DNA of 32,943 bases from a virus. Positions 30,056-30,958 of this stretch are shown here, in pieces. The notes beneath the pieces were generated by a model. The model ran no database searches. It was given only the letters and a program-made list of their open reading frames with translations, and had not been told where the DNA came from. Every line of letters begins with the position of its first letter. Positions within the stretch are counted from its first letter, which is position 1. A program made the translations under genes and the position numbers. The DNA is taken from the IMG/VR virus record IMGVR_UViG_3300032240_001718, positions 1-32,943 of that record; one strand, written 5' to 3'.

Positions 30056-30063
30056 TACATTTG
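30056..30063 (+). promoter_or_regulatory. Probable promoter of the structured RNA
   Basis: TACATTTG matches TAnnTTTG and lies 12 bases before the first stem of the RNA element, so transcription would begin just ahead of it. The -33 region is weak (no clear TTTG). Confidence 0.52.
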
Positions 30064-30161
30064 TGAATAATTAGCGGAAAGGGTAGGAGTTTTCCGGTGA
30101 TTAATGAGGGTTAAAAACCACAATGCCTGTTTCCACTCCTACGGATTCAGGCATTTTTTTT
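30064..30161 (+). ncRNA. Structured RNA: two hairpins with complementary loops (kissing) ending in a terminator
   Basis: Hairpin 1 pairs CGGAAA (30075-30080) with TTTCCG (30091-30096) and exposes the loop GGGTAGGAGT. Hairpin 2 pairs AATGCCTG (30122-30129) with CAGGCATT (30148-30155), with an inner TCC/GGA stem that exposes exactly ACTCCTAC (30135-30142). That loop is perfectly complementary to GTAGGAGT (30083-30090) in loop 1 over 8 bp, so a kissing-loop or pseudoknot fold is strongly suggested. Between them GGTTAAAAACC may form a small stem. No long protein frame covers the region. A TAnnTTTG box lies just upstream and a T-run follows hairpin 2, so the product is either a ~90-base small RNA or a leader that attenuates the replication gene at 30170. 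It matches no RNA family I know. Confidence 0.72.
30122..30161 (+). terminator. Intrinsic terminator formed by hairpin 2 of the structured RNA
   Basis: An 8-bp perfect outer stem plus a 3-bp inner stem is followed by eight T. It lies only nine bases before the replication gene, so read-through or anti-termination would be needed to express that gene from the upstream promoter. Confidence 0.85.
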
Positions 30162-30169
30162 AAAAAAAT

Positions 30170-30958
30170 ATGGAAAAAGAAGCATATTATTTCCCACATT
30201 TCTGTAATGCGCGACATGATCGAAAAATTCGTAGGTTACGCAAAGAATTGGGTGTTGAAGGATACGGTATTTATTTCATGCTGTTGGAAACATTACGCGA
30301 ACAACAGGATTTGATGTATCCATTGGAAGATTTGGATTTATTAGCGGAGGAATTTGGTGTATCAGAAGCAAAGGTTAAAGTCACAGTTTTGAATTACGAA
30401 TTGTTTGAAATCGATGGCGATCAAAAATTCTTTTCACCACGAATGTTGGTTTATTTAGAACCATATTTTCGCATGAAAGAACAGCGAAAAGTTGCCGGTC
30501 AACGATCAGCAGAATTAAGAAAATCCAACGGTCGTTCAACGGTCGTTCAACAAAGTAAAGAAAAGGAAAGTAAAGAAAATGAAAGTAAAGTAAATGAAAG
30601 TAAAGAAAACGATAATGAAATCGTTGATTTCATAACGTTTCGCGATCAGTTGTTCAATACATGGTTCGATTATAAAAAACAAAAAAAATCATCGTACACA
30701 GAAATTGGTAAAGCCACATTGATAAAGCAATGGGAAGGTAAAACAGATGATCAGTTACAATCAGCCATTGAACATTCAATCGCCAATAATTATCAAGGAT
30801 TATTTGAACCAAAAAATAATAATTCGGTAATTGCCGAAAAAAAAGGCAAAATTCAAACCAATTTAGAGAATATAAACGCGGCACAACAAGCCATTAAACA
30901 CAACATGAAAGATGGAAAAGTCATTAACAATCCATTCGACATCAGCAATTGGTCATAA
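30170..30958 (+). CDS. Replication initiation-type protein with Lin1244/Lin1753 (DUF4373) N-terminal domain
   Basis: The 262-residue protein starts with the Lin1244/Lin1753-like domain (residues ~4-100): YYFPHFCNARHDRKIRRLRKELGVEGYGIYFMLLETLREQ, then LEDLDLLAEEFGVSEAKV, a winged-helix pattern typical of phage replication proteins and DnaD-like primosome components. A low-complexity linker (about 108-150) contains the repeat SKEKE-SKENE-SKVNE-SKEND. The C-terminal part (FITFRDQLFNTWFDYKKQKK...) is a helical domain seen in the same protein type. It likely binds the phage origin and recruits host helicase. No Shine-Dalgarno site is visible (TTTAAAAAAAT before ATG). A terminator lies just upstream. 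Confidence 0.85.
   Translation: MEKEAYYFPHFCNARHDRKIRRLRKELGVEGYGIYFMLLETLREQQDLMYPLEDLDLLAEEFGVSEAKVKVTVLNYELFEIDGDQKFFSPRMLVYLEPYFRMKEQRKVAGQRSAELRKSNGRSTVVQQSKEKESKENESKVNESKENDNEIVDFITFRDQLFNTWFDYKKQKKSSYTEIGKATLIKQWEGKTDDQLQSAIEHSIANNYQGLFEPKNNNSVIAEKKGKIQTNLENINAAQQAIKHNMKDGKVINNPFDISNWS
30527..30613. repeat. Tandem repeats coding the replication protein linker
   Basis: Two copies of an 11-base unit CAACGGTCGTT (about 30527-30548) are followed by four 15-base units of the type AGTAAAGAAAATGAA (30554-30613). The 15-base units code the pentapeptide SKENE; the 11-base units are read in different frames. Copy number could change easily by slippage. Confidence 0.8.

Follow-up and report, generated by a model that had tools for sequence, protein, structure and literature searches.

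A widespread kissing-hairpin RNA family at phage replication genes, as recognised by sequence comparison

A kissing-hairpin element in front of a replication initiator gene

The window (the whole stretch of DNA analysed here, 32,943 bases) is a virus record with terminase, portal, head and tail genes. Profile scans of its ORFs showed that a RecT gene and a replication initiator are also encoded, and no integrase was found among the ORFs scanned (some small ORFs were outside the scan). Positions 30056-30161, located 5' of the replication initiator gene (rep) and on the same strand, contain an element in which the loops of two hairpins could pair with each other. What kind of element is this, and what might it do in front of such a gene? 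The features recognised are the following.

30056..30063, + strand: -7 promoter box TACATTTG, of the Bacteroidota type TAnnTTTG (from the sequence; transcription start predicted about 3-6 nt downstream)
30068..30103, + strand: hairpin 1, with an upper stem, a mismatch position and a lower stem (MFE fold; covariation)
30083..30090, + strand: kissing loop 1, GTAGGAGT (covaries with loop 2)
30109..30119, + strand: small middle hairpin GGTTAAAAACC (GGTT-AAA-AACC) in the linker (fold; weaker comparative support)
30123..30154, + strand: hairpin 3, the stem-loop of an intrinsic terminator (fold; covariation)
30135..30142, + strand: kissing loop 2, ACTCCTAC, the whole 8-nt apical loop of the terminator hairpin (sequence, fold, covariation)
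30154..30161, + strand: T-run of the terminator and predicted 3' end of the RNA (from the sequence)
30170..30958, + strand: rep, replication initiator gene with a Lin1244_N domain (Pfam PF14297, E 6.6e-14; PHROG 2562, replication initiation protein, E 2.9e-20)

Direct reading shows that ACTCCTAC is the exact complement of GTAGGAGT over 8 bases, as the initial annotation of this locus had claimed, and no further copy of the loop 8-mer was found on either strand of the window. The same annotation took the second hairpin for a terminator presenting the complement as its full apical loop, which is confirmed by the fold and by the T-run, a stable stem-loop followed by a T-run being the hallmark of a Rho-independent terminator. 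The distance between the two main hairpins had been given as 25 bases and is actually 19, and the middle hairpin lying between them had been overlooked. Similarly, rep does start just past the T-run, but with eight bases, not nine, between its end at 30161 and the ATG at 30170. The predicted RNA has a size of ~93 nt and folds with a z of -3.25 relative to dinucleotide shuffles, while the loop duplexes were computed at about -7 to -12 kcal/mol at 37 C. Folding of the single sequence gave no strong alternative antiterminator, and a weak competing fold at 75-84 nt.

Conservation and covariation

We collected 80 viral loci by the Rep protein alone and examined the sequence upstream of rep in 75 of them, the window included. 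An element with complementary loops was found within 900 nt upstream of rep in 74 of the 75, belonging to two unrelated architectures: 49 have that of the window (type 1) and 25 a second one (type 2), whose hairpin 1 carries the pyrimidine-rich partner and whose 3' hairpin carries the purine-rich one. A conserved gene order with loss of the complementarity, which had been set beforehand as the outcome that would speak against the element, was therefore not seen, the 75th locus (L010) having no recognisable element at all; the type-1 model finds none in its 57-kb record either.

Compensatory changes in loops and stems, which the initial annotation had suggested looking for with a covariance search in relatives, were found in both. 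In an alignment of 41 type-1 sequences (the A1 set, whose members, like those of the 82-sequence tally below, were selected for 7-nt complementarity and are ascertained to that extent) compensatory double changes were present at 10 of the 11 pairs of hairpin 1 and at 4 of the 8 in the kissing helix, 95.7% of whose cells pair. None of 500 shuffles reached values as high for the main covariation measures. The top three pairs of the terminator hairpin were 100% paired with double changes, and its lower stem keeps pairing while its sequence varies. The mismatch position of hairpin 1 is G.G in 58 of the 82 sequences tallied, and the middle hairpin was paired in 64.8% of cells, with a GGTA/TACC variant in two sequences. 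In type 2 (16 sequences) the kissing helix was paired in 100% of cells and 6 of its 8 pairs covary.

A less biased check was made with a covariance model that leaves out the kiss. It gave 53 strong matches in the loci collected by Rep, all 53 with complementary loops, and in another 97 loci its strong matches were elements already listed as complementary. Furthermore, the loops of the type-2 cores beside rep were complementary in 22 of 22. Complementarity by chance, which had been judged hardly credible from the window alone, is ruled out by this covariation. At the level of sequence comparison, the kissing-hairpin element is thus confirmed as a real, widespread and unnamed RNA family at phage replication genes.

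Complementarity is kept across at least 11 loop alleles, those of loop 1 in type 1 including GTAGGAG, GTGAGAG, GTCAGAG, GTGGTAG and GTTAGAG. Two elements (L028 and L264) have 5 differences in 95 nt, and four of the five make up two compensatory kissing pairs. Some positions are invariant, and the loop ends (GT..AG / CT..AC) nearly so. These near-invariant ends, and the presence of GTAGGAG in very distant phages (with Reps just 53-57% identical), indicate that complementarity is not the only constraint.

Exchange of the element between close relatives

Several phages with Rep proteins 96-99.6% identical differ in the loop allele or even in the whole architecture (L036/L039, L018/L020 and L007/L008). 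Pairs with an identity of 85% or more in rep DNA had a median RNA identity of 0.99 when the loop was the same versus 0.74 when it differed, while rep itself changed from 0.93 to 0.90 and the upstream flanks from 0.85 to 0.73. In the pair L006/L042 the promoter (0.97) and rep (0.91) are similar and the RNA only 0.55 identical. Judging from these comparisons, the RNA is exchanged as a cassette between close relatives, and such exchange suggests that what shifts between them is a specificity residing in the RNA and not in the Rep protein.

The same data bear on another origin for the loop sequence. We take ACTCCTAC, the commonest loop allele, to match the universally conserved 16S rRNA site of the EUB338 probe, so that the loops might target or mimic 16S rRNA. 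This is scarcely credible as an explanation, since the 8-nt identity holds for the commonest allele only, the other ten lack that sequence and the loops switch between phages whose Reps are nearly the same.

The finding of near-identical Rep behind different alleles or architectures resembles plasmid incompatibility groups; plasmids fall into incompatibility classes (PMC5703833).

Promoter and nature of the molecule

The initial annotation had placed a -7 box just upstream of the hairpins, and the same box is found in nearly all relatives: of 105 type-1 elements 102 have it 4-7 nt ahead of hairpin 1, and of 28 type-2 elements 27 have it at 5-8 nt. In most elements of both types the distance from its end to hairpin 1 is 5-6 nt. 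The search required TAnnTT and left the last positions free (T 0.80, G 0.75); the upstream TTTG, enriched 19 nt upstream of the -7 box in the family consensus of both types, was likewise outside the search. The consensus therefore has the form of a Bacteroidota primary-sigma promoter (TTTG ... TAnnTTTG at a fixed distance), the window's own -33 partner of TACATTTG being poor. Because the box sits at a fixed short distance, the transcript is predicted to begin at hairpin 1. This start would leave no room for a leader peptide, which weakens one part of an earlier proposal, an attenuator sensing a ligand, protein or ribosome, namely the ribosome. A possible short frame of the window, from 30104, was considered as a leader peptide and rejected, as it has no ATG in most relatives.

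The loops GTAGGAGT and ACTCCTAC also form an inverted repeat adjoining a replication initiator gene, and could be an operator or origin bound by Rep as DNA and mistaken for loop complementarity. However, at the core pairs of hairpin 1 G-U outnumbers A-C by 20:2 (51 distinct hairpins, uncorrected for relatedness), and covariance model scores are about 65-117 bits on the + strand versus at most 27 on the - strand. This bias and the strand difference indicate that the functional molecule is an RNA read in the direction of rep. Together with the conservation of stems and terminator, the different elements beside near-identical Reps and the same loop beside distant ones, the G-U bias makes the DNA reading very improbable.

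Linkage to rep and occurrence

Scans with the RNA pattern, blind to rep, gave 92 distinct type-1 and 26 type-2 contexts. Of these, 86 of the 92 and 21 of the 26, respectively, had rep downstream in the same orientation, bearing out the earlier view that the element is tied to the replication gene; it was within 21 nt of the element in 63 of the type-1 contexts, and two of the six type-1 exceptions had less than 150 bases of sequence downstream. RNA structure and linkage to rep are, on these comparative grounds, well supported.

A different reading is that of a stand-alone structured small RNA whose target in trans would be a factor of the host or the phage, with a decoy or counter-defence role as examples, and for which the vicinity of rep would be merely an early and conserved place in the genome. 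The element is a complete promoter-terminator unit, small ORFs separate it from rep in some relatives, a few divergent members precede genes unmatched to this Rep family, and the cassette swapping could mirror an arms race. Against this, in nearly all contexts to which the RNA pattern alone led, rep is the first or second gene after the element, the window has no other 8-nt target for the loop, and loop classes differ between phages with nearly the same Rep. We consider this reading unlikely, though it deserves serious attention.

All but two of the 29 positive virus records have a single element. One exception, IMGVR_UViG_3300027969_000114 (59,277 bases, with L047/L310 and L365), has two and looks like two phages joined, as its size is about the sum of two ~29.6-kb records (3300009164_000250 and _000251) with matching elements. 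The other is a 29.7-kb record with one extra weak match on the opposite strand at the same site.

The elements come from metagenomic viral contigs, and the carriers are probably small tailed phages of Bacteroidota hosts. Searching INPHARED by blastn with one type-1 and one type-2 RNA gave no match, and the Rep relatives found there were only ~31-35% identical. The exact loop pattern was found in 23 stretches of GTDB genome contigs. One was a true case (L383), in a contig of a Saprospiraceae MAG that carries primase- and methyltransferase-like genes; in the others hairpins and T-run were not evident on reading the sequences. The covariance model, run on 395 genomes of the same phylum, found only the L383 contig and two weak terminator-like matches. 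The element is thus nearly absent from bacterial genomes, as far as this pattern search of GTDB and the 395-genome model search extend, and its near-absence from GTDB contigs (with a pattern representing the commonest allele only) indicates that the phages apparently do not integrate.

Some divergent members were also seen. L309, L325 and L350 have the same loops and a far longer 3' hairpin with a T-rich tail, the L309 record giving no match to the type-1 model. In L327, L341, L332, L346 and L383 the same loops are found on other stems and followed by genes outside this Rep family, that of L383 being, as read from its sequence, a DnaG-like primase.

Comparison with known systems

The initial annotation knew of no RNA family with this layout. 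Guanidine-IV riboswitches, however, have two hairpins joined by a pseudoknot, the 3' hairpin being terminator-like (PMC9788692), and the phage element shares the loop pseudoknot and the 3' terminator with this riboswitch (mepA) and its Gd4v variant. The Rfam search that had been advised gave no family for the element: Rfam 15 had none at gathering score in the window or 16 relatives, and low-threshold scans of the window and relatives gave no guanidine family, so that the curated model, whose presence in Rfam 15 we assume, is not matched. No published description of the element was found in the literature. Compared with guanidine-IV as described in PMC9788692, the phage kissing helix varies by compensation in its middle and has invariant ends, and the gene that follows is a phage replication initiator. 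A ligand that stabilises the kissing helix and so alters terminator closure would fit the shared layout (PMC9788692) and the invariant positions. Nevertheless, ligand sensing, the other part of the attenuator proposal, is weakened because the loop sequence and even the RNA architecture change before nearly the same Rep; as the kissing helix itself varies by compensatory changes, and an Rfam match is absent, we regard a riboswitch as improbable.

Among phage systems, the CI RNA of P4 derives from a replication-gene leader, with complementary sequences in the same transcript and premature transcription termination (PMC4825925). The complementary segments within one leader upstream of replication genes are common to both, but CI RNA arises by processing of a longer transcript and has seqA and seqC as its pairing partners, whereas the element described here is one promoter-terminator unit in which hairpin kisses hairpin. 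Phages with the element, in contrast to P4, show no sign of integration into GTDB genomes.

In plasmid pT181, the synthesis of the initiator is limited by termination in the rep leader under the control of an RNA. The same holds for pIP501, where an antisense RNA attenuates transcription of the rep leader (work listed in PMC5703833). RNA-controlled termination in a rep leader is what we propose for the phage element, although in these plasmids the regulator comes from the opposite strand and here both partners are in one RNA. Finally, the put RNA of phage HK022, ~70 nt long, has two stem-loops, follows an early promoter and influences termination (PMC9378689). The likeness is in the two stem-loops behind a promoter and the link to termination; put, however, stays on the RNA polymerase and suppresses downstream terminators, whereas our element has its terminator in the second hairpin, whose loop kisses that of hairpin 1.

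A possible mechanism and its significance

The reading we favour, while holding it tentatively and just short of calling it probable, is that of an RNA next to its promoter that gates transcription of rep through termination and owes its specificity to the kissing loops. A phage RNA of ~93 nt would be made from its own host-type promoter and the nascent RNA would fold at once into hairpin 1, the small middle hairpin and the terminator hairpin, ending at the terminator just 5' of rep. The attenuator and the free ~90-base RNA considered earlier are in this sense not alternatives, since one promoter-terminator unit would yield both. As most members have no room for a promoter between the T-run and the start codon, rep would be made by read-through of the terminator, so that the RNA would gate production of the initiator. 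The two loops, in hairpin 1 and in the terminator hairpin, pair over 7-8 bp, and this kiss would be the tunable and specific part, holding or blocking terminator closure during the time that the polymerase spends on the T-run. An antiterminator role of the kiss is plausible, since in guanidine-IV the linker becomes shorter once the terminator stem is complete, which may keep the ligand from binding and the paired fold from forming (PMC9788692); the opposite sign is also possible. The least certain step is that RNA already terminated might, through loops of a shared class, influence leaders still being transcribed, with a dose-dependent or class-specific control of replication as the outcome. 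The favoured reading draws on the covariation of the stems and of the loop-loop helix, the strand bias, the promoter spacing, the linkage to rep, the single copy in nearly all records, the cassette swapping and the uniqueness of the loop 8-mer in the window. Speaking against it are the failure of single-sequence folding to give a strong antiterminator, the small ORFs that separate element and rep in some relatives, the near-invariant loop ends and locus L010, with a rep and no recognisable element.

An extension of this step takes the loop alleles as recognition classes. The terminated RNA would act on nascent rep leaders in all phages that share its class, leading to replication control and mutual exclusion of co-infecting phages, and classes would be changed by cassette swapping. 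We consider this rather doubtful, the action in trans being weakened because the finished RNA would have its loops mutually paired.

That an RNA controls a replication gene by way of termination is already known, while a kissing terminator with swappable alleles would be new. The element would represent an abundant family of structured RNAs, so far without a name, at the gene with which phage replication begins. Its loop alleles form a natural series with matched changes, in which kissing-loop control of termination could be tested directly. The pairing kept by matched changes and the exchange of the RNA as a unit suggest a new form of RNA control over phage replication.
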